In this document: positions 11,747 to 38,927 of the stretch, piece by piece
Position numbering within the stretch: position 1 is the stretch's first letter
Layout of the letters: each line of letters starts with the position of its first letter
NCBI GenBank assembly: GCA_014879675.1
Contig: JACSRQ010000160.1
Coordinates: 1 to 52,725, forward strand
Reading direction: 5' to 3'
From: Ignavibacteria bacterium
Lineage (GTDB): Bacteria > Bacteroidota > Ignavibacteria > Tepidaquicellales > OLB5
DNA: 52,725 nt
Translations under genes and position numbers: made by a program
Notes under the pieces: generated by a model
The model's database searches: none
What the model was told of the DNA's origin: nothing
What the model saw: only the letters and a program-made list of their open reading frames with translations

Positions 11747-12403
11747 TTAGACGCGCTGCTGTTTTTCTTTGTTCATCCTGTTATTGCTATCGCGCTTTTC
11801 TTCTTCCGCCGTATGCGTATAATTATCCTGTCTTATGTTCTGGCCGGTTTTATCTTTGCCCGTACCATATGTTTCAGTTTTTGGTTTATCCAGGATTGAA
11901 TCTTTCCTTTTATCGTTTGTCTGATCATATTCATTTCGGCTGCTGCCCTGAGTTGCTCGCTCTTTTTCTTTACCTTCATCAAGTTTGCCTGCCCGTGTAT
12001 TCTGCAAGTTGCCTTCTTTGTTTTTATCATCATCGGCAGTTTCATCATCATTAAATCCTTCGTTCAGCTTGTCTTTTGCCCATTCGGCATCCTTTGTTTT
12101 CGGATCGGTAGTATCCCTTTCCAGCCTATCGGATTCATTGCCGCGCTTCTGATCATCATTTTTGCTGCCTTTTTCCGGATCAAATCCCGTGCGCTGAGTA
12201 TTTTCTTTTTTTATCTGTTCTTCTTCATCATACTCAATTGATTCGCCATCACCGGTTTCGGGAGATTTCTCAGGCTTTACCGGCTGATTGCCTGTGGTGA
12301 TATCATCATTTTTCTTTTCTGGAACCGGAAGATCAACTTCCTGTGAACGATCATTACCCTGATTGTTCCCCGGGTTTTTTCCGGGGTTCTGTGTGTTAGC
12401 CAT
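11747..12403 (-). CDS. Highly hydrophilic, probably disordered stress protein
   Basis: 218 residues with almost no hydrophobic segments and dominated by Lys, Glu, Asp, Asn, Gln, Thr and Gly, for example 'NPGKNPGNNQGNDRSQE' near the start and repeated 'TGKDKTGQN'/'KDSILDKPK'-like stretches. There is no signal peptide. The composition matches hydrophilins or desiccation-type disordered proteins, but no named family was recognised. The gene has its own sigma-54 promoter (12465-12480) with an upstream GACA-N4-TGTC box (12543-12554), so it is likely a direct target of a sigma-54 activator, probably the one encoded at 13400-14758. Confidence 0.65.
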   Translation of the reverse strand: MANTQNPGKNPGNNQGNDRSQEVDLPVPEKKNDDITTGNQPVKPEKSPETGDGESIEYDEEEQIKKENTQRTGFDPEKGSKNDDQKRGNESDRLERDTTDPKTKDAEWAKDKLNEGFNDDETADDDKNKEGNLQNTRAGKLDEGKEKERATQGSSRNEYDQTNDKRKDSILDKPKTETYGTGKDKTGQNIRQDNYTHTAEEEKRDSNNRMNKEKQQRV

Positions 12404-12464: not shown

Positions 12465-12480
12465 AACAATTACTGTGCCA
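12465..12480 (-). promoter_or_regulatory. Sigma-54 (-24/-12) promoter for the hydrophilic protein gene
   Basis: On the minus strand the sequence is TGGCACA-GTAA-TTGTT, with the two invariant GG bases separated by exactly ten bases from the -12 GT. The expected transcription start is near 12455, about 50 bases before the ATG at 12403. The -12 element is GT where the textbook consensus has GC, as in the three other sigma-54 sites of the stress region. Confidence 0.8.
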
Positions 12481-12542
12481 AAAAATTTGTGACGAGTTTT
12501 GCCTAAAATTCAAATATTTGACCGGTAATCTTCATTAATTCA

Positions 12543-12554
12543 GACAAATTTGTC
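12543..12554. promoter_or_regulatory. Candidate activator-binding palindrome GACAAATTTGTC
   Basis: A perfect 12-base palindrome centred about 93 bases upstream of the predicted sigma-54 start. The same GACA-N4-TGTC pattern recurs at 20505-20516 and 26426-26437 at the same distance from other sigma-54 promoters, so I call it an enhancer (UAS). Confidence 0.65.
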
Positions 12555-12556
12555 AT

Positions 12557-12584
12557 AAAAAAAGCAGGCAAATTGCCTGCTTTT
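12557..12584 (-). terminator. Intrinsic terminator of the DUF3347 lipoprotein gene
   Basis: Inverted repeat AAAGCAGGC/GCCTGCTTT with a five-base loop, followed on the minus strand by seven T residues. It lies just after the stop codon of the gene at 12612-13286. Confidence 0.8.
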
Positions 12585-12611
12585 ATGTACCAAAAAAAGT
12601 CGTTTTAAAAC

Positions 12612-13286
12612 TCAATCAAATTTCCAGCCTTTAACTACCTGTACACATTTTTCGTTCTTCTCATTTGTTTTATCCTTTCCGTAGTAGGGATTATCCAGGT
12701 CTTTGCTATCAGTGAACCAGAAGCTTCTATCTTTAAGTCTGCTGCAGGATAGCTTATATATATCTTTTCCTTTTACGCCGAATTTTGTGATCATGTTTTC
12801 GATTGAAACACTCATTTCAGAAAAGATCTTTCGCTGAGTAATGAGATCTTTAGCTCCGGCCAGATCAGCATTTATTTTTTCGAATGTTGTGAGCCAGTTC
12901 TTCCACTCTGTACTTTTTTCATATTGAGCAGCAGAAGTAGCCGCACTCATTAATATCTTTTTCATTTCTTCGGATTGCTTTACCACATCTGCAGTATCAT
13001 CATTTTCAAGCTCATCTTTTATATCAATATAATTGTCAAATATGTCATTAAGCACTGACCGGAACACCTTAACTTTCAACTTAGTCGGGTCATTTGGTTC
13101 AAATGCTGTACTATTAAAAACGGAATCTTTGTTTAGATCTGTATTAATAAGAGTATCAACATCGCGGCCTAAAGTAGTTGAAGCAGAATCAATAGTTTGT
13201 TTCACTTCCCTGCGGTCTTGTTTGGAGCAGGAAATAAATCCCATTGCTGCTGCCAGCAGCATCACGAAAACAAATTTGTTCTTCAT
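12612..13286 (-). CDS. Lipoprotein with DUF3347 domain
   Basis: About 224 residues from the ATG at 13286, which has GGAGGAC seven bases upstream; the first ATG (13301) overlaps that Shine-Dalgarno and is less likely. The N-terminus is a lipoprotein signal ending in a 'GFISC' lipobox. Residues ~60-220 resemble DUF3347, found in periplasmic proteins near metal-efflux systems: 'DIFDNYIDIKDELENDDT', 'LITQRKIFSEMS', 'FGVKGKDIYKLSC' and 'FWFTDSKDLDNPYYGKD'. A lone Cys lies in 'KLSC', and a second near the C-terminus ('EKCVQV'), which is where a metal or haem site is often suspected. A sigma-54 promoter lies immediately upstream. Role unproven; metal or stress sensing in the periplasm is a guess. 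Confidence 0.7.
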   Translation of the reverse strand: MKNKFVFVMLLAAAMGFISCSKQDRREVKQTIDSASTTLGRDVDTLINTDLNKDSVFNSTAFEPNDPTKLKVKVFRSVLNDIFDNYIDIKDELENDDTADVVKQSEEMKKILMSAATSAAQYEKSTEWKNWLTTFEKINADLAGAKDLITQRKIFSEMSVSIENMITKFGVKGKDIYKLSCSRLKDRSFWFTDSKDLDNPYYGKDKTNEKNEKCVQVVKGWKFD

Positions 13287-13322
13287 TTGTAAGTCCTCCA
13301 TTTAATTTTAAATGAAGTGTAT

Positions 13323-13339
13323 TACAATTATTGTGCCAA
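13323..13339 (-). promoter_or_regulatory. Sigma-54 promoter for the DUF3347 lipoprotein gene
   Basis: Minus-strand TTGGCACA-ATAA-TTGTA with the required ten-base gap between GG and GT. The predicted start near 13313 leaves a leader of about 27 bases. No GACA-N4-TGTC box was seen in the 120 bases upstream, unlike the other three stress-region promoters. Confidence 0.75.
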
Positions 13340-13399
13340 CCAAATAGTTCTTTTATATCGGATTTTATAAAAGCTATCTTCTACCGCTCCAAAAAAGGA

Positions 13400-14758
13400 T
13401 CAATTTATTCCGAGGTTTTTCAGTTTCCTGTAGAAGGTTCGTTCATTCATATTGAGAAGTTTGGCCGCTTTGGATTTGTTTCCTTCAGCTTCTTCAATAG
13501 CTTTCAGGATAGCATCTTTTTCAGCTTTTTTTGTTACGTTTTCCAGGCTCTGGTCATCACCAGTGTCTTCCGGTTCATTTTTGCGGTAGGCATTTCCTAC
13601 TTCATCGGTAATGCTGATCCTTTCCATAACGCTGCCCTGTGTAAGCAATACGGCGCGCCTGATGGTGTTTCGCAATTCCCTCACATTTCCCGGCCAGTGG
13701 TGTTTGGATATTTTCTCCATAACCTCATCGGAAATAGTTTCGACATTTTTGTTAAGTTCCTGGTTGGCATCAGTAACAAAATGATTGACCAGTGAAGGAA
13801 GGTCGCCGGTACGTTCTCTCAAAGCAGGAAGATCAAGGTGAAATTCATTCAGCCTGTAGTATAGGTCTGCCCTGAACTTGCCGCTGTTAACTGCATCAGC
13901 AAGCCTAACATTGGTGGCAGTTAAAATACGCACATCCAGTGTAAGGGGTTTTTTGCCGCCTATCCTTGTTATTTTTCTTTCCTGAATAGCTCTTAAAAGT
14001 TTGATCTGATTCGGATCCGTTAGATTTGTGATCTCATCCAGAAATATGGTACCACCGTTAGCCTGTTCAAACTTTCCTTCTCTCTGCATCTTTGCATCTG
14101 TAAAAGCACCTTTTTCATGTCCGAAGAGCTCACTTTCAATTAAAGATTCAGGAATTGCGCCACAATCAACAGCCACAAAAGGTTTTTGAGCGCGCTCACT
14201 AGAGCGGTGTATCATATTTGCAATAACTTCCTTGCCTGTACCGCTTTCTCCCTGAATCAGCACGGTTAGGTTTGTTGGCGCAACAATTTTTACCTGGTCA
14301 AAAATCTCCTTCATTTGCGGACTCGAACCGATAATTCCGCTTCCTTTGTATGATTCATCAGACTTTTTCCGCAGGATTTGCAGTTCCTGGTGGAGGTATT
14401 TAAGCTCAAGGGCTTTCCGTATGGTTATGACCATGTCTTCATTATCGAATGGCTTGGTAATATAATCAAATGCTCCCTTTCTCATCGCTTCAACGGCATT
14501 TTTAATATCACCAAATGCGGTAAGAAAGATAAGCGGCGTCTCGGGTGAGATCTTCATGATCTCTTCCATTATTTGCATACCATCCATCTTTGGCAGTTTC
14601 ATATCGCAAATAATGAGGTCATATGATTTTGACTTAACTTCCTCTATTGCCTTAAAACCATCTTCCACAGATGAAGTTATGAAACCGGCTTCTTCCAGCA
14701 CGCTTTCAAGGGTATAACGCACAGATTCATTATCATCAATTATCAGAATTTTTTCCAT
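13400..14758 (-). CDS. NtrC-family sigma-54 response regulator
   Basis: 452 residues in the classic three-part order: receiver (1-120, phospho-acceptor Asp52 in 'IICDMKLP'), AAA+ sigma-54 activator domain (about 140-375, Walker A 'GESGTGKE', Walker B region 'GGTIFLDEI'), and a C-terminal Fis-type HTH ('[25 protein letters not shown]'). The sigma-54 contact loop reads GAFTDA where GAFTGA is the usual form. Its ATG is one base past the stop codon of the giant kinase, so the two form a two-component pair. Four sigma-54 promoters surround the pair, three with a common GACA-N4-TGTC box; this regulator is the best candidate to bind it. That link is inferred from position. Confidence 0.92.
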
Positions 14759-14759
14759 A

Positions 14760-17700
14760 TTACAATACTCCTTTGTTTATAGGGAGCCTGATTTGAACAT
14801 GTGTACCTTTCCCCGGCTCGCTTTCAATATTTAAAATACCATGATGCGATTTTATTGTCTGGTAAGCAAGCCCCAGACCAAGCCCTGTACCAGTTTCCTT
14901 GGTGGTGAAGAATGGTTCGAATATTTTGTCAAGGTTTTCAGGAGGGATTCCCTGCCCCGTATCGATAATATCAATAACTAGTTCTTCCTTCAACTTACTC
15001 ATTTTAGCGTTAACGTTCAGATTGCCGCCTTCAGGCATTGCATCAACAGCATTGGAAAGAAAATTCATGAGCGCATTTTCGAGTTTCATTTTATCTGCCC
15101 TAATGTCAGGCAAGCTATTCTCAATTTTTTTTGTCAACAAAATTCTGCTTTCCTCACACCTTGCTTCAATACTGTTCGTGATATTATCCAGAACGTCGTA
15201 TGTGTTAAAGGCTGAATAAACCAGGTCTTCAGGAGCTGCAAAGTTGAGAAGGTCCTTAATTATCTTATTCGCAATATCGCTGTTAACAAGTATATATTTA
15301 AGATGCTTCTTCATTTTCTCATCTTCAATCTTTGATTTAGAAAGAAGCTGTGCGAGTGCGCTGATATTTGCCAGCGGGTTCCTGATTTCGTGCGCAATAC
15401 CCGAAGAGAACCTGCCTAAAGCGGCAAGTTTTTCGTTATGTATAAGCTCTTTCTGCGCTTCCAAAAGTCTGGCATTTGTTTTTCTCAACTCATCTTCAAC
15501 AAGCTTAATATCTGTAATATCCTGTATGCTACCGAACATGCGCCATGGTCTTTTCCTGTCGTCAAAATCTATTCTTACATCAAGTGTAACATACTTCATC
15601 CTGCCCTCACGGGTAACAAGCCTGTAATCCATTTCTAAATTTTCAGGATCTTTCTTTAACTTTTCAATAATACTCTGCATTTTAGGTCGATCCTCAGGAT
15701 GTACGAACTCGATCAGGTGATCGTACTCAAGCGGCGCTTCACCCGGATAAATTTCATGGAGCCTGTAGATCTCATCAGACCATGATATTGAGCCTGTTTT
15801 GTAATTTGCCTCCCAACTTCCTATTTTGGCAATACTTTGAGCTTCCTTAAGCTGCTTTTCACTTCGTTCTATCTTTTCCTGCGCCAGTTTGATATCAGAT
15901 ATATCGAATATAGTACCCAGTTCAGTTTCGACATTGCCGTTTAGATCAAGGAAAAATTCCCCGTGAGCTTTTAGAAATTTTATTTTACCCGATTCAGTAG
16001 TGATCCTGTACTCATACCCATAAGGTTTCTTTTCCTCGAGAGCTTTTTTGGCAAGTTCATTTAGCATCCGGGCATCATCATCCAGTACAAAATTCATGAA
16101 GAAGCTGCCATCAATCTTTTTTCCATCATTCGGAACTTCGAATATATTATACATCTCTTCGGACCACTCAACAGTATCGGTTTTGATATCGCGTTTCCAC
16201 GTTCCCAGTTTCGCGATCTGCTGAGCAGTACGCAGCAGCTTTTCGCTTTCAACTATTTTGACTTCAGCTTCCTTCAGAACCGTTACATCCATTACTGTAC
16301 CTACCATACGCGAGATATTACCTTCAGCATCAAGTTCAATTTCTCCCTGGGAGCTTAGTATTTTCATATTTCCTGTGCGTGTCCGGTAATTGAGTAAGTA
16401 ATTGAAAGGCTTCCCTGATTCAGAAGCGGTTTCGATTGCCTGCTTCCTTTTTTCCCTGTTTTCTTCATCAAGCAGGTTTAAATATAGTTCGTTGGTTATT
16501 TCAGTGCCTGGTTCGACATCAAACAGATTATACATCTCCTCCGACCATCTTACCTTGTCATTTTTCGCATCCCATTCCCAGCTGCCAAGTTTTGCCATTC
16601 TCTGGGCTTCCCTGAGCTGCTTTTCACTGGCTACGATAGCCTCTTCATTGCGTTTTTTTTCAGTTACATCGCGTGTTACTTTAACAAACCCGGTCAGCGC
16701 CTCTTTTTCATCATACAACGGTGTAAAGATAATATCCGCAAGGAACAGAGTACCATCTTTCTTCACTCGCCAGCCTTCTTTTTCATAACTTCCAAACTGA
16801 ACAGCCTTACCCATATTGATTGAAGGCTCATCATCTACAACATCACCTTTGGTATAAAATATTGAAATGTGTTTGCCCAGAATCTCCTCTTCTTTATATC
16901 CTTTTATCTGCTCAGCTCCTTTGCTCCAGCTTTGTATAAAACCATCTTTATCCATTGTAATGATAGCATAATCTCTTATACTGCTCATAATGAGCCTGAG
17001 CCATTCTTCGTTTTCGCGGATCCTTTCCTCTGCTTCTCTTATTTCGGTAACATCAAGGCAGGTACCTACTAGTTTAACAACCTCTTTGTTTGCATCAGTT
17101 TTTACGCCTCCCTGAGAGCGCAGGATCTTAACCTTACCTGCCGGAGTAACGATCCTTTCGTAAAACTCGAATGGTACCTTCTCATTAAGTGTGCGCTCAA
17201 TATTTCGCCTGACTTCTTCCCTGCTATCTTCATGCAGCCGTGATACAAATCCCTGGAACGTATGATCAAATTCAGCTGGCTGCATTTCGTAAATTCTGTA
17301 CATTTCATCCGACCATTTAATATCATTTGATCTCACATCCCACTCCCAGTTACCCATCCTTGCAATACTTTGAGCTTCCAGCAATGAGTTTCGGCTTTCT
17401 ATAAGCTCCGTTTCGATCTGCTTTCTTCGTGAAATATCCCTGATCATTCCGGTAAAAAAAGGTTCACCGTTCATTTCCCATTTCGCAAGAGAAAGCTCAA
17501 TAGGAAACTCTTCACCGTTTTGGTGCTTCCCGGTAAGTTCAATAGTCTTTCCGATAAGATTGGCTTTACCGGTTTCAACTACATTATTGAAAGCCTTACT
17601 ATGCTGATTACGGAATTCTTCAGGCATAAGTACTGATACAGGCTTATGGTTGATCTCTTCAGGCTTAAATCCGAACACATCTATCAGCCTGTTGTTAGAA

Positions 17701-20498
17701 TATACTATTTCACCGCTGCTGTTGACCGTTAATATTACATCATTTGCAGTATCGGCAATTGCTTTAAAATGTTTTTCTCTTTCACTTATCATTTCAATAT
17801 AGCCGATACGCTCGGCAAAGCCGCCTAATTCGGAAGTAATATTCCTCAGTCCGTTTATTGTTTCGGCATCATATTCAATTTTTTCCACGTGGAGAAACTC
17901 AAGCAGCCCAATAAGTTTGCCTGCACTTATAACAGGAAGCACTATGATCGTTTTGAGTCCAACTTGCATACTTACAGATAACTTGCTGTTGTTTTTTTGA
18001 ACTGCAGCATCTTCAATAGCCTCCCATGCGGGTTCATTTGATCTAATGATGCTGCTATATAAAGGTATATTCTCACTTGCAGCGGGCTCACCGGAGACTG
18101 CACGAAACAGATCATATTCGGGCAAGAGCGTTGTGTTCCATATACCTGAATCTGCTAAGGAATCGTTTTCGAAGCTGATATAATGTCCGATGCTCCATCC
18201 GGTATATTCGCATATTTTATCTATTACAAACTGCAGGCAATCGTCAAGGCTCACCAGCTTATTGGTACCAAGCGCAACATCGTTTAACAGTCTTAGTAGC
18301 GAATTGCGTTTATCAAGCAGATCCTGGGTATCTTTTTCTTCGGTAATATCGCGTACAATGCCCACAATGGAATCAACTTTACCATCTTCATTCCTGATAA
18401 CAGAAGCAGAAAGATAAGCACAAAACTCAGTTCCGTCTTTTCTTTGATTGGTAAAATCGCCTTTCCAGCCGGTCTTCAGTGCAGCTGAAAGTATTTCTTT
18501 TCTTTTTTCCTCAGATACAGTTTCTGAATACAGAACAGGTACAAGCTGCCCGAGTACTTCACTTTCCAGGAACCCGTAACAAACTTCAAATGCAGGGTTT
18601 ACAAAGATCACGCGGTTTTGGAGATCAGTTATATACACGCTCTCTCTTATACCCCTCAGTGCATGACCAAATAGCTTAAGTCTGTTTTGTACTTTTTCTT
18701 TGGTTGCCATTTCATCAAGCAGCCTGTTAAGGGTATTTGCAAGCTCTATGGTTCTTTCGTTAACCCTTGTTTCCAGATCATCATAGGCTATCTTCAGATT
18801 TTCTTCAGCCTTTTTGCGTTCGAGGAAGTTTCCTACCTGCCTGCCAACTGATTCCAGTATCTCCAGAAGGTCCTCTTTTGCTGTCAATGGATCTTTATTG
18901 AAACATTCGATGACTGCCATAATCCTTCCACTATCGCTGATGGGGATCGCAAAAGCTGAGTTCCATCCTAATTTGAGTAAACCCTTTTTACGAACTATCC
19001 TGTCATCATCTGCAATATTTTCTATCCATACAGATTTTTTTTCTTTCAGCACTATTCCCGGAATCCCTTTGCCGGATTCAAGTTCAAAAGACTGGTCATA
19101 CTGTTCGAGGTAGTCATTAACGTCAAACTTGTTATGCCCCCAAAAGGCTTCCTGAACAAGCTTTTTATCTTTTACAATCCATGCAATACCAAACTTCCAA
19201 TTTACGCCTTCGCATATGTTTTGAAGCACATTCCTGAGCGCTGATTCTGTGTTGGTTGATTCCGCCAATGTCCTCGAGACAGCATACTGAATTTTAAGAT
19301 ATCTCTCATTTCTTTTCTTCAGATGAATATCCGCGCAAATGCCTATGAAGCCTTCAAACTCATCGCCGGTAAACCTTGGAATTCCTTTATTCAGGAACCA
19401 GCGGTACCCGCCTTCGGCAGAACGGATACGGAACTCGAGCTCAAAACTCACTCTTTCATCAAATGAAACTGCGTACGTATGCAGGCAATTTTCCAGGTCA
19501 TCCGGATGGATATCATCAATCCAGCCGTTGCCAATTGTTTCTGCCTCACTTCTGCCTGTTGTATCACACCAAACTTTATTTACGTAAGTAAATCTTTTGT
19601 TCCTGCCGCTCATCCAGATCAGCACAGGGGCAAAATCCGCCATTTCTCTGAAACGGCTTTCACTTTCACGGAGAGAGTTTTCTATTCGTACCCTGCTCTC
19701 AATTTCAGCAACAAGATTTTCGTTCGCCTCCTTCAGCTCAGAAGTTCTTTCATCAACCTTATCTTCAAGCTCATCGTAAGACTGTTTCAGCAGTGTTTCG
19801 GCATCATTTTTATTTTTAATAAGCTTCTTTGAAACAAAAAGTGCGAGCGCGAGCAGCCCGAACGCAAAAGCGCTTGTCAACACTATAAAGAGCTGCGTAT
19901 TTTGCAGGCTCCTTTGAGATTTATTCTGTCTCTCATCCAGCAGTTTGAACTCTTCCTGCTTTATAAGGTTTGCGGCTCTGTAACACTTATCCATGTAGTC
20001 TTGCGATTGCAGCGCAAGCCCTGTTTGGATACTATCAACTTTTTTTGTCAGCTCGAAAAGTACAAGCGAAGAATCAAGCAGCGCTATGCTGTTTACGGCA
20101 TTTTTTTCAAGCTCGTCAATGTTCTGCTGCTGAATATCATTATCAAATGTAATTGATTCCAGTTTCCGAAGCATCACATTAAGTGAAGCTTTGGAATTCC
20201 GGTAATCTTCAAGATAGTTCACATTTTCTCTTACAACATAACCTCTTCTTTGAAGCTGAATATTTGATAATACAAAATTTATTTGGTCGGTCCTTTGAAG
20301 TACATCATTAGTGTGATCAACCATATCACCAGATTTTTTATAGACCTCTATACTATTATAGGTAATAAGGCTCAAGATGATAAAACAAAGCAGAAAGACC
20401 AAAAAAGCCGCCGGAATGAACTTTTCAAGCGGCAGTTTTTCTACTAATGACTTAAACTTTTGTTTTTTATGATTTTCCAATATTGCGATTTTCTTCAT
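14760..20498 (-). CDS. Giant CHASE3-multi-PAS/GAF sensor histidine kinase
   Basis: 1912 residues. Approximate order: transmembrane helix (30-53), CHASE3-type extracytoplasmic domain (55-195), second helix (203-226), coiled coil, PAS1 (275-398), GAF1 (400-565), PAS2 (600-735), GAF2 (740-910), PAS3 (915-1035), PAS4 (1045-1160), PAS5 (1165-1290), PAS6 (1295-1415), PAS7 (1420-1540), PAS8 (1545-1665), HisKA with '[13 protein letters not shown]' (about 1700), then HATPase with '[20 protein letters not shown]'. PAS4, 6, 7 and 8 share 'AQ.IA+.G.WE' openings and 'WS(D/E)E.Y' motifs, so they look like recent duplications. No receiver domain is attached; the partner is the sigma-54 regulator one base downstream. 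The membrane segments and CHASE3 domain suggest sensing at the envelope, with PAS/GAF adding cytoplasmic inputs. Confidence 0.9.
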
Positions 20499-20504
20499 GA
20501 TTGC

Positions 20505-20516
20505 GACAAATCTGTC
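20505..20516. promoter_or_regulatory. Candidate activator-binding palindrome GACAAATCTGTC
   Basis: It is centred about 85 bases before the start predicted from the sigma-54 promoter at 20569-20584, and only 7 bases upstream of the giant kinase ATG on the other strand. It matches the boxes at 12543-12554 and 26426-26437, and could serve both divergent genes. Confidence 0.6.
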
Positions 20517-20568
20517 AGAAATGTTTTGGGGTATTACCCTAAAAACAAAGAAAACAGCAAAAAAGATT

Positions 20569-20584
20569 TGGCACGGTAATTGTT
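20569..20584 (+). promoter_or_regulatory. Sigma-54 promoter opening the rightward stress cluster
   Basis: TGGCACG-GTAA-TTGTT with the ten-base GG-to-GT gap. The predicted start is near 20595, about 47 bases before the ATG at 20642. It faces rightward, divergent from the giant kinase. Confidence 0.82.
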
Positions 20585-20641
20585 ATTTTGATAATCGTTG
20601 CAAGATACTAAAAACAATCAAACTTTTAAATGGAGGATGTA

Positions 20642-20767
20642 ATGTTAGAACAAACAATTAGAACAGAAGATATCGGATACTTAAGATTACTGGTAGATAT
20701 TGCAAGCCTGGAACTAAAGGATTCAAAAAAGAAGGATAAAACAGTATCCGCTAAATCGAAAAATTAA
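20642..20767 (+). CDS. Small hydrophilic protein (41 aa) behind a sigma-54 promoter
   Basis: 41 residues beginning MLEQTIRTEDIGYLRLLVDI and ending in a Lys-rich tail (SKKKDKTVSAKSKN). The first half could form one amphipathic helix; no membrane segment. The Shine-Dalgarno is strong (TGGAGGATGTA before ATG), and the sigma-54 promoter with enhancer box lies directly upstream, so it is probably a real and tightly regulated product. No family recognised. The receiver gene follows after 57 bases. Confidence 0.6.
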   Translation: MLEQTIRTEDIGYLRLLVDIASLELKDSKKKDKTVSAKSKN

Positions 20768-20824
20768 AGCTTAACTAAAATGCAGTTTTTTGACACCCAA
20801 CTTAAAGATGTAAGAGGACCTGAA

Positions 20825-21226
20825 ATGCCAAACCTGAATATATTAATACTTGTGATTGAAGATGACAAATACATGAACGAGACACTATGTGAAGTACTTG
20901 AATCTGAAGGTTACAATGTAGAATCAGCACTAAACGCGCTTGATGCAATAAACAAAATAAAGCATAGCGAAAAAAAATACCAGCTGCTGATACTCGATTA
21001 CAATCTTCAGTTCCTGCAGGGAATAACCGGACTTGATATTTTTCAAATTGCAAAAGAGATTGATCCTGATGTAAAGGCAATAATGATCTCTGCATACGGC
21101 AGAGATAAAGAATTGAAAGATAAAGCTTCAAAAGTAGGAATAAGCCAGTTTATAGATAAACCATTCCTGATAACAGATCTTGTAGATACAGTTGATGATA
21201 TTACCCGGAAGGTGTTAGCACTCTGA
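20825..21226 (+). CDS. Single-domain response regulator
   Basis: About 133 residues when started at the ATG at 20825 (preceded by AGAGG); an in-frame ATG at 20780 would add 15 residues that do not belong to the fold. Receiver features: 'VIEDDKYM' acidic pair, phospho-acceptor Asp in 'LLILDYNLQF', Ser in 'MISAYG' and Lys in 'DKPF'. There is no output domain, so it acts by protein contact or as a phosphate sink. It lies divergent to the giant kinase and behind a sigma-54 promoter, hence may feed back on that signalling pair. Confidence 0.85.
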   Translation: MPNLNILILVIEDDKYMNETLCEVLESEGYNVESALNALDAINKIKHSEKKYQLLILDYNLQFLQGITGLDIFQIAKEIDPDVKAIMISAYGRDKELKDKASKVGISQFIDKPFLITDLVDTVDDITRKVLAL

Positions 21227-21278
21227 CATAATTTGATTAAGTATAAGAAACATTTTAATAAAACATATAGGAGAAAAT

Positions 21279-21902
21279 ATGCGTACAGTTAAAAATTCAT
21301 CATTAGTTTTTGTATTAACATTAATTTTTGCATTCACCACGTTTTCACAGGTGCAAACAACGAAACCAATCAGCAAATCAAACGTAAAGAAGCAATCGTT
21401 TCCGGAGTTTTCAATAGCTCCTACAGGCGGTGCGATATTCCCGACTTCAAAAGAATTCAGAAATGATTTCAAACCGGGTGGAATTGCCGGCCTTGATCTC
21501 GGATTGAAGATCAATAAAGAAGTAGCGCTTTATGGAAAGTTTACATACATGTTTCTTTCGTCTAAAAAAAGCGGCGCGCCAATTGGTCAGTACATGGAAT
21601 TTTCGGCTGGTCCCAGGTATTATTTCACACATCCCAAGCTGAAATCACAGGTTTATTTTGAAGGCGGAGCAGGCGCATACTATTTCAAGCAGAATAGTTA
21701 TATAAATCCTGAAGATAATACACAGACTGTTGACCAGGTTTCTACAACAAATGCCGGTATAAACGGTGGTATCGGCGCGAGCCTCTTCCTTACACCGTCT
21801 ATAAGCATTCTGGCTAAAACGAAGTACCATAACATATTCACAAGAACCGGCTCAATCGGATTTATGACTGTCAACGCCGGACTCGAATTTACAATCAGAT
21901 AA
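21279..21902 (+). CDS. Outer-membrane beta-barrel protein
   Basis: 207 residues with a signal peptide (about 1-24, ending near 'TTFSQ'), then beta-strand-rich sequence with Gly/aromatic alternation ('VALYGKFTYMF', 'MEFSAGPRYYFT', 'VYFEGGAGAYYF') and a C-terminal strand ending in 'AGLEFTIR', the usual terminal beta-signal with an aromatic residue close to the end. It resembles small OmpA-type eight-stranded barrels of Bacteroidota. A clear 'AGGAGAAAAT' precedes the ATG. Role unknown; probably part of the envelope-stress group. Confidence 0.75.
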   Translation: MRTVKNSSLVFVLTLIFAFTTFSQVQTTKPISKSNVKKQSFPEFSIAPTGGAIFPTSKEFRNDFKPGGIAGLDLGLKINKEVALYGKFTYMFLSSKKSGAPIGQYMEFSAGPRYYFTHPKLKSQVYFEGGAGAYYFKQNSYINPEDNTQTVDQVSTTNAGINGGIGASLFLTPSISILAKTKYHNIFTRTGSIGFMTVNAGLEFTIR

Positions 21903-21938
21903 ATTAATACGAATTATTCAGCATTACAAATAACTAAC

Positions 21939-21967
21939 TGCTGCAGGGACTACAAGTTCCTGCAGCA
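21939..21967 (+). terminator. Hairpin after the beta-barrel gene
   Basis: TGCTGCAGG/CCTGCAGCA stem, extendable to 11 pairs with one G-U, and a seven-base loop, followed by CTTTAAAA. It lies between the beta-barrel gene and the lipoprotein gene and may end or weaken the transcript; the T-run is short. Confidence 0.55.
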
Positions 21968-21990
21968 CTTTAAAAACCAAACAAAATTAA

Positions 21991-22623
21991 ATGAACAACT
22001 TCATCAAATACTTTTTCATCCTTGCTATTGCCTCGACAGTTTACTTAGGCTGCGATGACGCAGAAGACCCAATAACCCCGGGCTCGACAGATACAAACGC
22101 AGTAAACTATAACAACCTTCTTATCTCAGAAAGAACAATACCGTTTGAGCAGTCAATGAGCGGCATCAACTTCTTCGCAGGAACAGTAGTTCAGGACTCA
22201 AGCAGCATGAAAGACGCCAACCTGATAGATTCACTTTTTGCGGGAGATTCATCTTACTATTTCAGATCAGGCGAGCTATCAGATATACCAAATATGGTAC
22301 CGGGCTATAAGACAAGGTTCAAACTTGTGTCATTAATATCCAGCCAGGCTGAATTTGACACCATGAAAGTAATACCTGATTCAGATACCACACTTTCTGA
22401 AAACGACTTTACAATGGATAATACAAATTCATTCAGCGCGCCGCTCGTTTTCAACAGTGTCTATGCTTTTTATCTTAAAGGTAAATATGATAACAATGTA
22501 ACAACATACCCTATATACGGTCTGTTATACCTGGACGAGGCTTTTAATGAATCGACAGGCTTTAAACTCAGGTTTGATGTAAAAATTAACAAACAGGGCA
22601 AAAACAATTTCAAATCACAATAA
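21991..22623 (+). CDS. Hypothetical lipoprotein
   Basis: 210 residues. The N-terminus (MNNFIKYFFILAIASTVYLGC) is a lipoprotein signal with Cys at position 21, followed by an acidic stretch 'DDAEDPITPGSTD' typical of exported Bacteroidota lipoproteins. The rest is mixed beta with no recognised domain; it contains one repeated-looking 'SG'/'FAGDSSYYFRSGELSD' region and a 'VYAFYLKGKYD' strand. Its position between an outer-membrane barrel and YtxH suggests an envelope function. No Shine-Dalgarno is obvious before the ATG. Confidence 0.65.
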   Translation: MNNFIKYFFILAIASTVYLGCDDAEDPITPGSTDTNAVNYNNLLISERTIPFEQSMSGINFFAGTVVQDSSSMKDANLIDSLFAGDSSYYFRSGELSDIPNMVPGYKTRFKLVSLISSQAEFDTMKVIPDSDTTLSENDFTMDNTNSFSAPLVFNSVYAFYLKGKYDNNVTTYPIYGLLYLDEAFNESTGFKLRFDVKINKQGKNNFKSQ

Positions 22624-22652
22624 TATTTAATTTAGAACGGAGAATACAAATC

Positions 22653-23084
22653 ATGGAAGATAACAAATCAGTAAAAGGTTTTATGCTTGGAATGCTTGCA
22701 GGCGGTGTAGCAGGCGGATTATTAGCACTGTTATACGCCCCTAAAAGCGGTGTTGAGCTCAGAGGAGATATTCGCAAAAAGAGCCAGGAGCTTCTTACAG
22801 AAACCGGCGAATACATTGGTACTGCAAAAGACCGTGCGGGCGAAATGCTGAGCGAAGGCAGAAAAAGGGCAGGAGAATTTATTGACGATGCCAAAGAAAA
22901 AGCCGGAATGATCCAGGAAAACATCAGTAACATCTTTACCCAGGGTAAAGAAAAACTTGACGAAGAAGGCCATAAAGTAAAAGACGCAGTTAAGGCCGGT
23001 GTTGATTCATTCAAAGAAGAAAGGTCCAAACAGACTCAAAATCAGCACAGTAACCAGCATCAGAATAGCAAATCAAGGGCTTAA
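22653..23084 (+). CDS. YtxH-domain general stress protein
   Basis: 143 residues. A Gly/Ala-rich N-terminal membrane helix ('GFMLGMLAGGVAGGLLALLYAPKSG' over residues 10-34) leads into 'GVELRGDIRKKSQEL', the YtxH/GvpP signature. A long charged helix with 11-residue-like periodicity follows ('GRKRAGEFIDDAKEKAG'), ending in a Gln/Asn/Ser tail. YtxH proteins are small membrane-anchored stress proteins of unknown reaction. The next gene encodes a DUF948-like partner, a pairing also found in Bacillus (YtxG/YtxH). Confidence 0.82.
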   Translation: MEDNKSVKGFMLGMLAGGVAGGLLALLYAPKSGVELRGDIRKKSQELLTETGEYIGTAKDRAGEMLSEGRKRAGEFIDDAKEKAGMIQENISNIFTQGKEKLDEEGHKVKDAVKAGVDSFKEERSKQTQNQHSNQHQNSKSRA

Positions 23085-23125
23085 CAAATTAAAGAAATTC
23101 ATATAACGATAAGGGCATAGATAAA

Positions 23126-23563
23126 ATGGAAACTATAAGTTTGATAAACATGATCTCGGCAGCAGTACTTAACATTCTGCTTATAGTATTTTTTGTCTAT
23201 GCTTTTATTTGGTTTAAAGGTATATCAGCAAAGATAGATAAGATCGAAGAAGGCGTTACATCGGTTTACAAAGAAGTTACACCTGTACTATTAAAGATCT
23301 CTTCCGTTGCAGAAGACATACCGCCTGTATTGGCAAAGATCTCTGATATAGCAGAAGACATCAGCGGGATCACATCAGTTTCAAAACGAACTGTTCATAA
23401 GGGAGAAAACCTTGCTAACGAGCTTTTTGATAAAGGCAAAAACCTAGTAAATACGATCTCAATGGTTGAAGATAGAACCAGCGCGGCATACAACAACGTA
23501 ACAAACCTCATTTCCGCCCTAAGGGCAGGTGTAAGAACCTTCGGGCTAAAGATAAAACGCTAA
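23126..23563 (+). CDS. DUF948/YtxG-like membrane protein
   Basis: 145 residues with one N-terminal helix (about 8-30, 'AAVLNILLIVFFVYAFIWFK') and a long amphipathic region of repeating heptads: 'VTPVLLKISSVAEDIPPVLAKISDIAEDISGI', which contains a near-exact internal repeat of about 14 residues. This fits DUF948 proteins, often next to YtxH. It is predicted to be membrane-anchored with a coiled-coil. Function unknown, general stress context. Confidence 0.75.
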   Translation: METISLINMISAAVLNILLIVFFVYAFIWFKGISAKIDKIEEGVTSVYKEVTPVLLKISSVAEDIPPVLAKISDIAEDISGITSVSKRTVHKGENLANELFDKGKNLVNTISMVEDRTSAAYNNVTNLISALRAGVRTFGLKIKR

Positions 23564-23568
23564 AGACC

Positions 23569-23709
23569 ATGGATAAAATTAACGAAAGATCAGACTATTC
23601 TGAAATCGGTTACGAAGATTTTGACATTGATGATTACAATGAAAGGATCTATAAGTGGCTCAGTATAGGAGTATTGATGATTTGGATGATATGCATGTTT
23701 GTTCTTTAG
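23569..23709 (+). CDS. Small acidic single-pass membrane protein (46 aa)
   Basis: 46 residues starting five bases after the DUF948-like gene. The first 28 residues are acidic and Tyr-rich (SDYSEIGYEDFDIDDYNE), the last 18 form one hydrophobic helix ('WLSIGVLMIWMICMFVL'). It is therefore a likely tail-anchored membrane peptide with an acidic cytoplasmic head. No family recognised. Its tight spacing supports co-translation with its neighbour. Confidence 0.6.
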   Translation: MDKINERSDYSEIGYEDFDIDDYNERIYKWLSIGVLMIWMICMFVL

Positions 23710-23791
23710 ATTTCGATATCAAGTTATGGCCTTCAGGAAAAATTGATACAATTATTGCTGAATACCAGTCACTAATTTTCAGGGTAAAAAA

Positions 23792-23938
23792 TTGATCTGG
23801 ATAATTTTCGCAGTACTGGTCCTTTTGTGGATCTTGGGAATAATCGCTACAACTCCGCTTGGTGGCTTTATACACATACTGCTGATCGCAGCCATTGTAG
23901 TGGCAATAATACAGATCTTGCGATCTAAGAAACCATAA
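23792..23938 (+). CDS. Lmo0937/DUF5670-type small membrane protein (48 aa), TTG start
   Basis: 48 residues with two hydrophobic helices, 'IWIIFAVLVLLWILGII' and 'LGGFIHILLIAAIVVAII', joined by a short loop containing 'LGGFIHIL', then a basic tail (RSKKP). This is the pattern of the lmo0937/DUF5670 family, common in stress gene groups. The frame has no ATG; the likely start is TTG at 23792 with a weak AGGGT before it. The role is unknown. Confidence 0.7.
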   Translation: MIWIIFAVLVLLWILGIIATTPLGGFIHILLIAAIVVAIIQILRSKKP

Positions 23939-23967
23939 GTACATTACTAATTTTAAAAAGGCTAAGA

Positions 23968-24456
23968 ATGGAAAAGAGAGATGTATTTTTAACAGAAGCA
24001 TATATTCATTATGACTATTTCATCAAAATCGCGAGGAAGATGACACAAAATGATTTTGATGCTGAAGACCTGGTTCAGGATACGTATATAAGAGCATTCA
24101 AGTTTATTGATTCTTTTGAAACAGGCACAAACTCCAAAGCATGGATATACAGGATCATGAAAAATTTGTTCATAAATTTCAGCAGAAAAAAAATGGCTCA
24201 CCCGCAGTACAGCCTTGATTCGCTGACCACTGAACCAATTTTTGATGACCCGGATCCTACCCTGAGGCATTATGAGCTTACCAGGCTTATGGAAAAGGTG
24301 AAAGATGAATACCGCCAGGTAATAATACTTTTCCATCTTAAGCAGTTTTCTTTGATAGAAATTTCACAGCAGCTTAACTGGCCTCTGGGAACCGTAAAAA
24401 GCAGGCTCCACCGGGCCAGGAAAGAGTTTAAAAAGGTTTTGATCGAAGGGATTTAA
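23968..24456 (+). CDS. ECF-type RNA polymerase sigma factor
   Basis: 162 residues: region 2 with 'DAEDLVQDTYIRAFKF' (about 31-46), a short linker, and region 4 with 'FSLIEISQQLNWPLGTVKSRLHRARKEFKK' split over the HTH. This is a compact ECF sigma factor that would direct RNA polymerase to its own promoters. No membrane anti-sigma factor with a zinc-binding or TM pattern is next to it; the 107-residue protein downstream is not recognisably one. Spacing to the tiny membrane gene upstream is 29 bases. It adds a second regulatory layer inside a sigma-54-controlled cluster. Confidence 0.88.
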   Translation: MEKRDVFLTEAYIHYDYFIKIARKMTQNDFDAEDLVQDTYIRAFKFIDSFETGTNSKAWIYRIMKNLFINFSRKKMAHPQYSLDSLTTEPIFDDPDPTLRHYELTRLMEKVKDEYRQVIILFHLKQFSLIEISQQLNWPLGTVKSRLHRARKEFKKVLIEGI

Positions 24457-24487
24457 AATTCATCTAATAATTAGTGGGGGAGGCAGC

Positions 24488-24811
24488 ATGGAAACTTTAG
24501 GAAATCAGTTGTTCATTGAAGGCGAGAACAACAACATCTACATCTATTTTCACCTCGAGAACTTTAAGGCTGTTTCGGCATCCAAAGTACTGGATAGCTA
24601 CATTGAGACTTATAAAAATTATGATTTTGATAAGCTTAACATTTCATTCTGTAATACCGGCGTTCCAGGTGAACACCTCAGCACTTTCAGGAAAACCGGT
24701 AATAAAGCTATCGGGAAGCTGCTGAAACAAGTTAGGTGTATTGATGCATACTTTCATTTTAAACAGAATGAAAAGGTCATCAGCAAACCAAAAAGGATAA
24801 AAAAAGCTTAG
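24488..24811 (+). CDS. Hypothetical protein next to the ECF sigma factor
   Basis: 107 residues, soluble, with a basic C-terminus (KPKRIKKA). Features: 'YIYFHLENFKAVSASKVLDSYIETYKNYDFDKLNISFCNTG' as an alternating strand/helix pattern, one Cys each in 'SFCNTG' and 'VRCID'. I recognise no family. A very strong purine-rich Shine-Dalgarno (GTGGGGGAGG) precedes the ATG, and the stop is one base before the start of the SDR gene, so the two are co-translated. It may partner the sigma factor or the SDR; neither is shown. Confidence 0.6.
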   Translation: METLGNQLFIEGENNNIYIYFHLENFKAVSASKVLDSYIETYKNYDFDKLNISFCNTGVPGEHLSTFRKTGNKAIGKLLKQVRCIDAYFHFKQNEKVISKPKRIKKA

Positions 24812-24812
24812 A

Positions 24813-25682
24813 ATGCAAAAAGGTTCACAGAAAAAGAGAGTCAGGAAACCATTCAAACTGAGATCACAGCCGGGAATAGAAGCCGGCATGTCTCCCAAGC
24901 CGGTATTCATTTCCGATACTTATAAAGCATCCGGAAAACTTGATGGCAAAACTGCAATCATAACCGGCGGTGATAGCGGCATAGGCCGCGCAGTTGCGGT
25001 GCTTTTTGCACGAGAAGGTTGTAATGTTGCAATTGTATATTTGAATGAGCACAAAGATGCGAAACTTACCCGTTCATTTGTTGAAGCTGAAAACAGGCAA
25101 TGCCTGTTAATTTCAGGAGATATAGGACGTGAATCATTCTGCAGGCAGGTAATAGAGCGCACAGTAAAAAAATTCGGTTCGCTTAACATAATAGTAAATA
25201 ATGCGGCAGTTCAATATCCCCGTGAAGAGATCACAGAGATAACTTCCGCTCAGCTTGAAAAAACTTTTAAGACTAACCTGTTTTCCCAATTCTATATGGT
25301 GAAAGCCGCTATGAAGTATTTGAAAAGGAACTCATCAATAATAAATACCACATCTGTTACGGCATACAGGGGCAGCGGCCACTTGATAGATTATTCCGCG
25401 ACCAAAGGTGCTATAGTATCATTTACAAGGTCGCTTTCAGCAGGACTGGCAAAAAAAGGTATACGTGTAAACGGCGTAGCACCGGGCCCAATATGGACAC
25501 CTCTTATAGCAGCTACATTTCCTCCTAAAGACGTCGCAACTTTCGGAACAGATGTCCCCTTGGGCAGGGCGGGGCAGCCTTTTGAGACTGCCCCATGTTA
25601 CGTTTTCCTGGCGTCCGAAGATTCCTCGTACATGACAGGACAAATTTTGCATCCAAACGGGGGCGAAATTGTAAATGGCTAG
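24813..25682 (+). CDS. Short-chain dehydrogenase/reductase, general-stress type
   Basis: 289 residues. Cofactor motif 'TGGDSGIG' (51-58), 'NNAA' (129-132), catalytic Ser181, Tyr194 and Lys198 ('YSATK'), and 'NGVAPGPIWTPL'. A 45-residue N-terminal extension before the Rossmann fold ('SQPGIEAGMSPKP') matches the long-N-terminus SDR group that includes Bacillus general stress proteins YdaD/YhxC/YhxD. It reduces or oxidises an unknown carbonyl or hydroxyl substrate with NAD(P). Its C-terminus overlaps the next gene by 8 bases. Context is the stress cluster. Confidence 0.88.
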   Translation: MQKGSQKKRVRKPFKLRSQPGIEAGMSPKPVFISDTYKASGKLDGKTAIITGGDSGIGRAVAVLFAREGCNVAIVYLNEHKDAKLTRSFVEAENRQCLLISGDIGRESFCRQVIERTVKKFGSLNIIVNNAAVQYPREEITEITSAQLEKTFKTNLFSQFYMVKAAMKYLKRNSSIINTTSVTAYRGSGHLIDYSATKGAIVSFTRSLSAGLAKKGIRVNGVAPGPIWTPLIAATFPPKDVATFGTDVPLGRAGQPFETAPCYVFLASEDSSYMTGQILHPNGGEIVNG

Positions 25683-26133
25683 AAAGAGTAAGAGCTCAAA
25701 TGAAATTTTTTTTGAAAAGTTTGCTCTGAAATTAAGCCGGTTCTCAGGCACAACTACCGCGTTTGTTATAGCCTTTTCCATCATTGTAATCTGGGCAGCC
25801 AGCGGAAAGTTTTTCGGATTTTCAGAAGTTTGGCAGCTGGTCATAAACACCTGCACCACTATTGTTACTTTCTTAATGGTGTTCCTGATTCAGCGCGCAC
25901 AGAACAAAGACTCCCTTTCGATCCAGCTTAAGCTAAATGAAATTATCGCATCAATAAGCGGCGCAAGCAACAAGCTGGTTGATATTGAAGATATCAGTGA
26001 ACGTGATCTCTTAATACTAAAAAAACACTATCAAAAACTTTCTCAGCTATTCGAAAAAGACTACGATATTAAAGTATCACATTCCATAGAAGAAGCAGAA
26101 TCCAGGCATAAAAGAAAGGTAACATCAAAATGA
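25675..26133 (+). CDS. Low-affinity iron permease family protein
   Basis: 152 residues with two hydrophobic helices (about 25-45 and 50-72), 'TTTAFVIAFSIIVIWAASGKFFGFS' and 'WQLVINTCTTIVTFLMVFLIQRAQNKD', then a helical tail with 'LKLNEIIASISGASNKLVDIEDISE'. This is the low-affinity iron permease (Fet4-like) domain in its short bacterial form. Transport by such small bacterial members is unproven. The ATG overlaps the SDR stop by 8 bases, and its own stop overlaps the next start (ATGA), so three genes are coupled. Confidence 0.8.
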   Translation: MARKSKSSNEIFFEKFALKLSRFSGTTTAFVIAFSIIVIWAASGKFFGFSEVWQLVINTCTTIVTFLMVFLIQRAQNKDSLSIQLKLNEIIASISGASNKLVDIEDISERDLLILKKHYQKLSQLFEKDYDIKVSHSIEEAESRHKRKVTSK

Positions 26134-26309
26134 ACATATTAAAAGCGGGCAGACTTTTTTATTTACCGGCAGTTTTTATTGCACTACTGACATTACCCGG
26201 CTGTGAGTTTATCGGTGATGTTTTTAAGGCCGGCATTTGGGTTGGCATAGTAATTGTGATAGCTGTAGTGGTTGTCATTGCGTTTATTGTTAAGATGTTT
26301 AAGGGCTGA
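26130..26309 (+). CDS. Small lipoprotein-like membrane protein (59 aa)
   Basis: 59 residues overlapping the iron permease stop (ATGA). A signal-like N-terminus with lipobox 'LTLPGC' (Cys25) is followed by 'EFIGDVFKAGIWVG' and a second helix 'IVIVIAVVVVIAFIV', ending KMFKG. This type is common in Bacteroidota and Proteobacteria stress loci and often carries a misleading 'phosphatidate cytidylyltransferase' label. Function unknown; predicted inner-membrane peptide. Confidence 0.65.
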   Translation: MNILKAGRLFYLPAVFIALLTLPGCEFIGDVFKAGIWVGIVIVIAVVVVIAFIVKMFKG

Positions 26310-26425
26310 AAAGCAGTTTTAGCCGTACTGTTTCTCCCGGAAGAAAAATAACTCAGTTGGTATTTTCTTTCGCGGTTATTTATTATTATTCAAGCATTCA
26401 GCCTTAACCTTTGCTCATCAAATAT

Positions 26426-26437
26426 GACAGTGTTGTC
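26426..26437. promoter_or_regulatory. Candidate activator-binding palindrome GACAGTGTTGTC
   Basis: The palindrome extends to TATGACA-GTGT-TGTCATA (26423-26440), with seven-base perfect arms. Its centre lies about 83 bases before the start predicted for the sigma-54 promoter at 26489-26504. Confidence 0.65.
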
Positions 26438-26488
26438 ATAATCTCACCAATAAAACTTTAATTTCATAGCTAAGAAGGCAGATAAGTT

Positions 26489-26504
26489 TGGCACAGACTT
26501 TGTA
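26489..26504 (+). promoter_or_regulatory. Sigma-54 promoter for the zinc-ribbon protein gene
   Basis: TGGCACA-GACT-TTGTA with the correct ten-base gap. The predicted start near 26515 gives a 60-base leader to the ATG at 26575. The whole 26310-26562 spacer carries only this promoter and the palindrome. Confidence 0.8.
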
Positions 26505-26574
26505 TTGTAATATGTAAAGATGGCTACAGGCACATCTATTGTTAAAAGCAGCATTATATTAATTGTTTGATCAA

Positions 26575-26820
26575 ATGGTAAAATGTATGAAATTAGGCAT
26601 AAGGCATGAAAATTCATTCGAAATGGAAATGAATAACAGCATCAAATATAATAACCACATTCAGTACTCTGATAATGAATACATTCCAAAGTGTATACAA
26701 TGCCGCTCGGAATTAATTTCCAGTAACAGGGACAAAAATGGTGTTATTCATTGCTGCTCAAAATGTATCTCGAAAATAGGGCTTACTATGTTCTTTAACA
26801 GGTTTAAAATATACTGTTAA
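26575..26820 (+). CDS. Small protein with a C-x2-C...C-x2-C zinc-ribbon pattern
   Basis: About 81 residues from the ATG at 26575; a TTG at 26563 and an ATG at 26587 are alternatives, and none has a clear Shine-Dalgarno. Near the C-terminus are 'PKCIQCRSEL' and 'IHCCSKCIS', two Cys pairs about 20 residues apart that would suit a zinc ribbon. I recognise no family. It is probably a regulon member because the sigma-54 promoter and enhancer box sit directly upstream. Function unknown. Confidence 0.5.
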   Translation: MVKCMKLGIRHENSFEMEMNNSIKYNNHIQYSDNEYIPKCIQCRSELISSNRDKNGVIHCCSKCISKIGLTMFFNRFKIYC

Positions 26821-31793: not shown

Positions 31794-31814
31794 TTTTCAG
31801 ATCTAGTGTAATTG

Positions 31815-32963: not shown

Positions 32964-32984
32964 AATACCGTTTATAAATAACTA

Positions 32985-33014
32985 AACCCTGCCGGCAGAT
33001 CAGCTGGCAGAGTT
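32985..33014 (-). terminator. Hairpin between the porin and kdpD-like genes
   Basis: AACCCTGCCGGC and GCTGGCAGAGTT form a 12-pair stem (two G-U pairs) around a six-base loop. The minus-strand 3' flank lacks a strong T-run, so it may be an RNA processing or partial-termination site that lowers expression of the sensor genes relative to the transporter. Confidence 0.5.
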
Positions 33015-33046
33015 CAATAATATCTGAATTTTTAGAGCTTTTAAAG

Positions 33047-34111: not shown

Positions 34112-34113
34112 TT

Positions 34114-34236: not shown

Positions 34237-34243
34237 GGCTGAA

Positions 34244-34798: not shown

Positions 34799-34805
34799 TT
34801 TAAGT

Positions 34806-36857: not shown

Positions 36858-36875
36858 ATAATTTTAAATTTCCTT

Positions 36876-38582: not shown

Positions 38583-38589
38583 TTTTTGG

Positions 38590-38902: not shown

Positions 38903-38927
38903 TTTTGTTAATTTTTGATATAAGGTA

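Follow-up and report, generated by a model that had tools for sequence, protein, structure and literature searches.

The window, that is, the whole 52,725-nucleotide (nt) stretch of contig JACSRQ010000160.1 from an Ignavibacteria bacterium, carries the gene of a very large membrane histidine kinase next to that of a sigma-54 activator of the NtrC type, surrounded by -24/-12 promoters and by copies of a short palindrome, here called the enhancer box. A sequence-only reading of the window had claimed four such promoters, three GACA-N4-TGTC boxes and the pair formed by the activator and a 1912-residue kinase. All four sites, of the form TGGCAC-N5-TTGT, are present, at positions that were right to within 1–2 bases, and three of them have an upstream box, each exactly where it had been placed, with gaps of 62, 52 and 51 base pairs (bp), the gap being the number of bp between the box and the TGG of the -24 element. 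The domains of the two proteins were confirmed with Pfam, and 1 bp separates the end of the kinase gene from the activator gene. The promoters listed here derive from a pattern search.

13400–14758, minus strand: NtrC-type activator with receiver, sigma-54 AAA+ and Fis-type helix-turn-helix (HTH) domains (Pfam); proposed binder of the box
14760–20498, minus strand: membrane histidine kinase of 1912 amino acids (aa), with CHASE3, eight PAS, two GAF, HisKA and HATPase domains (Pfam)
12466–12480, minus strand: -24/-12 promoter of the hydrophilin operon, TGGCACAGTAATTGT
12543–12554, unstranded: enhancer box GACAAATTTGTC, 62 bp from the TGG of the hydrophilin-operon promoter
13324–13338, minus strand: -24/-12 promoter of the DUF3347 gene, TGGCACAATAATTGT
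20505–20516, unstranded: enhancer box GACAAATCTGTC, 52 bp from the TGG of the putative stress-operon promoter and directly upstream of the kinase start
20569–20583, plus strand: -24/-12 promoter of the putative stress operon, TGGCACGGTAATTGT
26426–26437, unstranded: enhancer box GACAGTGTTGTC (16-bp form ATGACAGTGTTGTCAT), 51 bp from the zinc-ribbon/outer-membrane protein (OMP) promoter
26489–26503, plus strand: -24/-12 promoter of the zinc-ribbon/OMP operon, TGGCACAGACTTTGT

The receiver of the activator (Response_reg, E 3e-32) has its Asp in IICDMKLP and a Lys in ITKPF; the AAA+ domain (Sigma54_activat, E 5e-70) carries the loop GAFTDA, a variant of GAFTGA; and the C-terminal domain matches HTH_8 (E 6e-12). 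With the adjacent kinase and an rpoN gene in the source genome (Sigma54_DBD, E 1e-57), the receiver Asp, the AAA+ domain and the Fis-type HTH place the protein among the two-component bacterial enhancer-binding proteins of the NtrC family. Among the best 25 NCBIfam models, no equivalog cut-off was reached (AtoC 450 vs 714, NtrC 434 vs 559, ZraR 390 vs 760, LuxO 373 vs 800, GlrR 372 vs 763 and NtrX 366 vs 600). The start codon of the kinase is uncertain, its N-terminus and start codon not being conserved in relatives. A box lies directly upstream of the kinase start in all 10 loci examined, so that autoregulation of the kinase is possible, if speculative.

Box, promoter and spacing across the order

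The comparison covered 44 genomes of the order, with the reversed pattern as the control and gaps of 45–68 bp as the main range. The starting point was a footprinting of 20 stretches, namely 19 around regulator orthologs and the source contig C7, in which boxes are found at set distances from TGGCAY-N5-TTG. The conjunction of box and promoter occurs 5 times in the source genome against 0 for the reversed pattern (two of the five using one C7 box), 42 times against 1 in the order and 43 times against 1 in 59 relative genomes. Since two of the 42 pattern rows use one box, the distinct box sites over the order number 41. Their gaps fall at 50–55 bp in 25 cases and at 59–65 bp in 14, with one each at 45 and 48 and none at 56–58; the site with the gap of 48 has a second promoter at a gap of 60. 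In 20000 uniform-gap draws, which treat related sites as independent, such an arrangement was obtained 0 times. Gaps of 70–100 bp, planned as a negative control, gave 12 matches against 1 reversed, at 72–76 (10) and 84 (2), so that, combined, the gap classes form a series of about 52, 62, 74 and 84 bp, in steps of one helical turn.

Conservation also extends beyond the letters that were searched for. An A follows the box in 37 of the 41 sites, the next base is T in 27 and G in 11, and a T precedes the box in 27, giving the 16-bp palindromic consensus ATGACAWWWWTGTCAT. TTG is followed by T in 27 sites, by A in 11, by C in 2 and by G in 1; this preference for T or A departs from the usual -12 element, TTGC. 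Of 20 promoters in the loci compared that lack a box at gaps of 45–68, 12 have a near-match box (score at least 9.8, gaps 50–65) by a matrix derived from the 41 sites; of the others, one has an exact box at a gap of 84, one a weak box (6.6, gap 53) and six none, all six being the DUF3347 promoter just behind the regulator. The three remaining exact TGGCAC-N5-TTGT sites of the source genome (contigs C51, C54 and C137), without a box and with a best matrix score of 5.4, were not counted. A half-site search of the same genome gave 8 matches against 5 in the control, five of the eight being already known and the others lying on C47, C112 and C196.

The bare palindrome was rejected as a marker of the regulon, since its 59 matches compare with 57 for the reversed pattern and, among the matches listed, are mostly a dispersed repeat: 35 of the 50 listed places carry one of two cores of this repeat, and six of the other 15 lie at promoters of the proposed regulon. 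The sequence-only reading had held that a box equally dense away from sigma-54 sites would speak against it; such a density is found for the bare palindrome, not for the phased box with its promoter. The repeat itself, AGTAGCACAGACATTC(C/T)TGTCTGTG, is present on many source-genome contigs (L008, L009, L011, L015–L017, L019, L021, L022), with copies sometimes inside apparent reading frames.

An ortholog of the regulator is found in 18 of the 44 genomes (E 1e-130 or better), in addition to a contig-edge fragment in G043, with identities of 58–80% vs at most 45% for the next matches. A site at a gap of 45–68 is present in 14 of the 19 genomes with an ortholog vs 2 of the 25 without (Fisher p 1.4e-5) and, when in-phase matches at wider gaps are added, in 17 of 19 vs 2 of 25 (p 3.7e-8), p-values that are overstated because sites in related genomes are not independent. 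Two members of the same genus, G004 and G009 (97% and 99% complete), have rpoN and neither regulator nor site. An alignment of 19 ortholog sequences, which come from 18 genomes, shows a near-invariant recognition helix; the second activator of the window and four distant gas-vesicle-type relatives have a different one. At 27 loci of more distant relatives, no such promoter was found to have a box in the 200 bp before it. That the activator of the giant-kinase operon is the protein that reads the box is thus suggested by co-occurrence, by linkage and by the conserved helix.

Proposed targets and a structured RNA

The genes downstream of the window promoters are as follows.

11168–11683, minus strand: DUF892 (YciE/YciF-like) protein, second gene of the hydrophilin operon (Pfam DUF892, E 3e-55)
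11747–12403, minus strand: hydrophilin-like disordered protein, 218 aa (by composition; no Pfam match)
12612–13286, minus strand: DUF3347 lipoprotein-like protein (Pfam DUF3347, E 6e-12)
20642–20767, plus strand: 41-aa leader protein of the putative stress operon (36–58% relatives behind the equivalent promoter)
20780–21226, plus strand: stand-alone receiver with its phospho-acceptor Asp (Pfam Response_reg; 56–85% relatives)
21279–21902, plus strand: outer-membrane beta-barrel protein (Pfam OMP_b-brl)
21991–22623, plus strand: lipoprotein (no Pfam match; 62–72% relatives in place)
22653–23084, plus strand: YtxH-domain protein (Pfam YtxH)
23126–23563, plus strand: DUF948-like membrane protein (below the Pfam cut-off, 25.4 vs 37.2 bits)
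23968–24456, plus strand: ECF-type sigma factor, putative member of the stress-operon transcript (Pfam Sigma70_r2/r4)
24813–25682, plus strand: SDR-family oxidoreductase, NCBIfam PRK06701 subfamily (Pfam and NCBIfam)
25675–26133, plus strand: low-affinity iron permease family protein (Pfam Iron_permease, E 6e-47)
26563–26820, plus strand: small CxxC (zinc-ribbon-like) protein (32–35% relatives; no Pfam match)
26896–27441, plus strand: outer-membrane-like protein, 181 aa (76–84% relatives behind boxed promoters; no Pfam match)

The box precedes the operon of the 41-aa protein, receiver, OMP and YtxH at 13 sites in 12 genomes (gaps 51–53) and the zinc-ribbon/OMP operon at 8 sites in 8 genomes; for the promoter of the latter, 7 relatives have a boxed equivalent. 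It also precedes the hydrophilin/DUF892 operon in several genomes, in some of them as a near-match. Relatives likewise have the DUF892 gene behind the boxed hydrophilin gene, and hydrophilin relatives of 43–47% lie behind boxed promoters at two loci (L058, L063). Hydrophilins are recognized by a Gly content above 6% and high hydrophilicity; the window protein has 7.8% Gly and a grand average of hydropathy (GRAVY) of -2.07. The 41-residue length that had been proposed for the leader holds if the second ATG, with GGAGGA in front, is used, the mechanical open reading frame (ORF) being of 45 residues; translation of the stand-alone receiver may likewise begin at an internal ATG. The DUF3347 lipoprotein was correctly called; its mechanical ORF starts at 13301, and the ATG at 13286 is preceded by GGAGGA. 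For the zinc-ribbon protein, with no Pfam match, there are only the CxxC pairs and the 32–35% relatives. Behind the ECF sigma factor, a conserved 107-aa protein is encoded at 24488–24811, its sole Pfam match being below the cut-off (18.2 vs 22 bits). Within the DUF3347 gene, a near-match box, TTGTCAAATATGTCAT (13035–13046, score 13.3), lies downstream of the unboxed promoter of that gene; it could act from downstream or be due to chance.

The regulon had been pictured as an island within the window, which does not hold: the source genome has at least three further boxed loci. (i) The box at C7:893–904 lies between two divergent promoters, with gaps of 61 and 51; one side leads to an Ig-like protein and then to genes for a DAO-Rieske oxidoreductase, Ku (Pfam, E 2e-47) and what we take to be LigD-like proteins. 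(ii) The box at C28:6513 (gap 74) precedes a second hydrophilin-like protein of 175 aa (ATG at 6654; Gly 4.6%, GRAVY -2.00). (iii) The third is the gene of a structured RNA on C121. The targets include several outer-membrane or type IX-secreted proteins (Por_Secre_tail). As side observations, a near-match box with a sigma-54 promoter precedes a short protein starting MLWTIA at L057:8697, and similar MLWTI proteins of about 50 aa adjoin boxed genes in L075, L062 and L072; in the first ~600 bases of C7 (L075), an end-of-contig open frame reads RRRQRQMCIRDS, presumably a translated sequencing-adapter artefact.

In seven relatives (G001, G002, G003, G005, G008, G010 and G012; loci L173–L178 and L115), a conserved stretch that ends in a terminator hairpin lies behind a boxed promoter, for a predicted RNA of 365–427 nt (about 460 nt in the source genome). 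A stem of 10–11 bp closes a domain of about 172 nt. Both-sided changes are found at 12 of 50 predicted pairs, or 13 of 47 with the source copy added; they come largely from the divergent G001 and source copies, and not every sequence keeps all the pairs. A covariance model, R1, built without the source copy, matched 8 of 59 genomes, among them the source genome at C121:5738–5909 (minus strand, E 7e-12). There, the RNA gene (locus L188, C121:5596–6167) has two boxes, with gaps of 53 and 73, before CGGCACGGAAATTGT, a promoter outside the TGGCA search pattern, and a terminator. Folding against shuffled sequences gave z of -6.2 (G012) and -5.8 (399 nt of the source copy). R1 also weakly matches the reverse strand at 6 of 8 RNA loci (17–30 bits), as expected of a self-complementary sequence, and its single match in the window (16 bits, E 0.036) was taken as chance. 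In Rfam, one search gave a single match of 23.3 bits (gathering threshold 80) and another gave nine, all below gathering, the best with 28.2 vs 114. The promoter, boxes, terminator and conserved structure would suit a small regulatory RNA under a sigma-54 activator, such as Qrr or CrcZ, and the RNA is a candidate for a new family, with no Rfam match at gathering.

Mechanism, alternatives and related systems

Footprinting in relatives, phasing, co-occurrence, the conserved helix and two source-genome promoters found later support a sigma-54 regulon tied to the activator, and we consider it probable that the kinase with its CHASE3, eight PAS and two GAF domains and the NtrC-type activator command a sigma-54 stress regulon through the phased box. 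A signal would lead the membrane kinase to phosphorylate the activator, which would bind the 16-bp palindrome on one face of the DNA, the boxes being placed 50–55, 59–65, 72–76 or 84 bp from the -24 element; as is typical of the family, its AAA+ domain would then remodel the sigma-54 polymerase waiting at TGGCAY-N5-TTGT/A. The boxed receiver/OMP/YtxH, hydrophilin–DUF892 and zinc-ribbon/OMP operons would be its targets, along with the second hydrophilin, the divergent pair by the oxidoreductase–Ku–LigD cluster and the free-standing structured RNA. More speculatively, the stand-alone receiver of the first of these operons could drain, or compete for, kinase phosphate. The presence of hydrophilins, DUF892, YtxH, an ECF sigma factor, an SDR protein, a low-affinity iron permease and genes of non-homologous end joining (NHEJ) suggests a resemblance to a general stress response (desiccation, osmotic stress, DNA damage).

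Several points weigh against this proposal. Neither motif alone is enriched in the source genome, TGGCAC-N5-TTGT having 7 matches (4 in the window) vs 10 reversed and GACA-N4-TGTC being at its background, as seen above. The idea of a regulon with its own box is supported, with the reservation that one of the four window promoters, that of the DUF3347 gene, lacks a box over 170 bp of upstream sequence; an unboxed promoter of this type is found behind the regulator in 5 relatives as well. The regulator-bearing G030 and G043 (67% complete) have no site at any searched gap, and G001 (75% complete) and G038 have sites and no detected regulator. Most boxes are single, whereas activators of the NtrC type commonly act from at least two sites. 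Finally, the stress interpretation draws on gene content only.

One alternative is a regulon that is real but specific, for the control of the outer membrane, of osmotic state or of surface proteins, a possibility that we hold to be somewhat doubtful and still serious. It agrees with the several outer-membrane or type IX-secreted targets, with the potassium uptake (kdp) system nearby and with a proposed role of sigma-54 in controlling the cell exterior (PMC3162934); hydrophilins, DUF892, YtxH, the ECF sigma factor, the SDR protein, the iron permease and Ku/LigD, when taken together, look more like a general stress set. The conserved RNA, in turn, might be an mRNA leader or a short-peptide gene rather than a regulatory RNA, since in 6 of the 7 relatives it lies about 500 bp before a same-strand gene that we take to be glycosyltransferase-like, followed by a presumably purD-like one (the contig ends in the seventh); an intrinsic terminator ending the RNA, folding far better than that of shuffles, the paired changes, the different neighbour genes in the source genome and the lack of a conserved same-strand ORF, as judged by inspection without a coding test, make this unlikely. 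Somewhat more improbable still is that box and promoters are real but read by another activator or helper, the window regulator being a bystander: the source genome encodes four other strong sigma-54 activators, and two genomes without a detected regulator have sites, but sites co-occur with the regulator and lie on either side of its operon, they are mostly absent where a genome has other activators and no ortholog, and the 27 more distant loci are box-free, with a different helix in the four that were aligned. That short motifs at background were over-read by eye is practically refuted by the reversed-pattern controls, and by the conjunction, the phasing, the conserved flanking bases and the later finds.

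Several known systems come close to the one proposed here. In Desulfovibrio vulgaris, DVU3305, with the kinase DVU3304 and a second response regulator, DVU3303, has been called a general stress regulator (PMC3333781, PMC4641369). The likeness, i.e. a two-component sigma-54 activator with kinase and second response regulator and a site conserved across species, concerns described roles, not orthology or motif letters; the DVU3305 targets are UspA-type and membrane genes, a lon-type regulator, a transporter and kdp, and no structured RNA is reported in the excerpts consulted. DVU3334 of the same organism similarly controls kdp (PMC3333781). The window holds a second sigma-54 system of its own at 29958–40470, with kdpABC/kdpD and an NtrC-type activator (39124–40470), a CGGCACGGGAATTGC site at 38944 (minus strand) near this activator, and two TTTCAAAATGAAA-like copies at about 38996–39027; its box is different and its -12 element is the canonical TTGC.

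Small RNAs under sigma-54 response regulators are also known. GlrR is such a regulator, controlling GlmY/GlmZ. LuxO likewise controls the Qrr small RNAs (PMC11407668), and both LuxO-Qrr and GlrR-GlmY/GlmZ (for the RNAs, PMC7073468) differ from the present case in box, RNA and signal. In the CbrA/CbrB system of Pseudomonas putida, CbrB, of the NtrC family, drives protein genes and the small RNAs CrcZ and CrcY (crcZ/crcY) from sigma-54 promoters by in-phase subsites, on one face and at set spacing (PMC6296734); its subsites are non-palindromic (TGTTAC/GTAACA) and come in threes, it serves carbon control, and the RNA is unrelated.

By sequence, the nearest relatives of the activator outside the order (47–51% identity; Omnitrophota, Thermodesulfovibrionia and Syntrophus; L139–L141, L143–L146) are found by PAS kinases, and the box, looked for in these relatives of other phyla, was not found. 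At L141 and L143–L145, a stand-alone receiver and then what we take to be a GvpA-like protein of a gas-vesicle cluster lie beside the activator; L143–L145 keep the order of activator and then stand-alone receiver, and differ in their presumed gas-vesicle targets and in the recognition helix. An NtrC-like sigma-54 activator of gas-vesicle genes, GvrA, has been described in Serratia (PMC4982088).

The kind of system is thus already known (LuxO-Qrr, CbrB-CrcZ, DVU3305), while this regulon and this RNA seem new. In a library of open-licence papers, none was found on Ignavibacter* with sigma-54, nor on Ignavibacteria with general stress response, whereas two came up for Ignavibacteri* with structured RNA; the excerpts consulted of a 2025 cross-phylum survey of sigma-54 do not mention Ignavibacteri* (PMC12316311).

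It is tempting, although a little short of an even call, to go further and propose that the general stress response of Ignavibacteria is run through sigma-54 by one giant multi-PAS kinase and one activator. Under their command would be hydrophilins, iron and envelope proteins, an NHEJ cluster, an ECF sigma factor and a structured RNA of about 370–460 nt from a new family; the receiver would provide feedback, and the enhancer could be moved by whole turns of the helix only. RpoS, sigma-B and EcfG are regulators of the stress response in other bacteria; if the proposal is true, sigma-54 would do the job done elsewhere by these factors, the RNA would be a candidate for a new family whose switch is known, and the natural spacing series (about 52, 62, 74 and 84 bp) would allow enhancer geometry to be tested by comparison. 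A defined stress regulon, recognizable from sequence alone by its box, phase and promoter, would then be available in a phylum where genetic tools are scarce.

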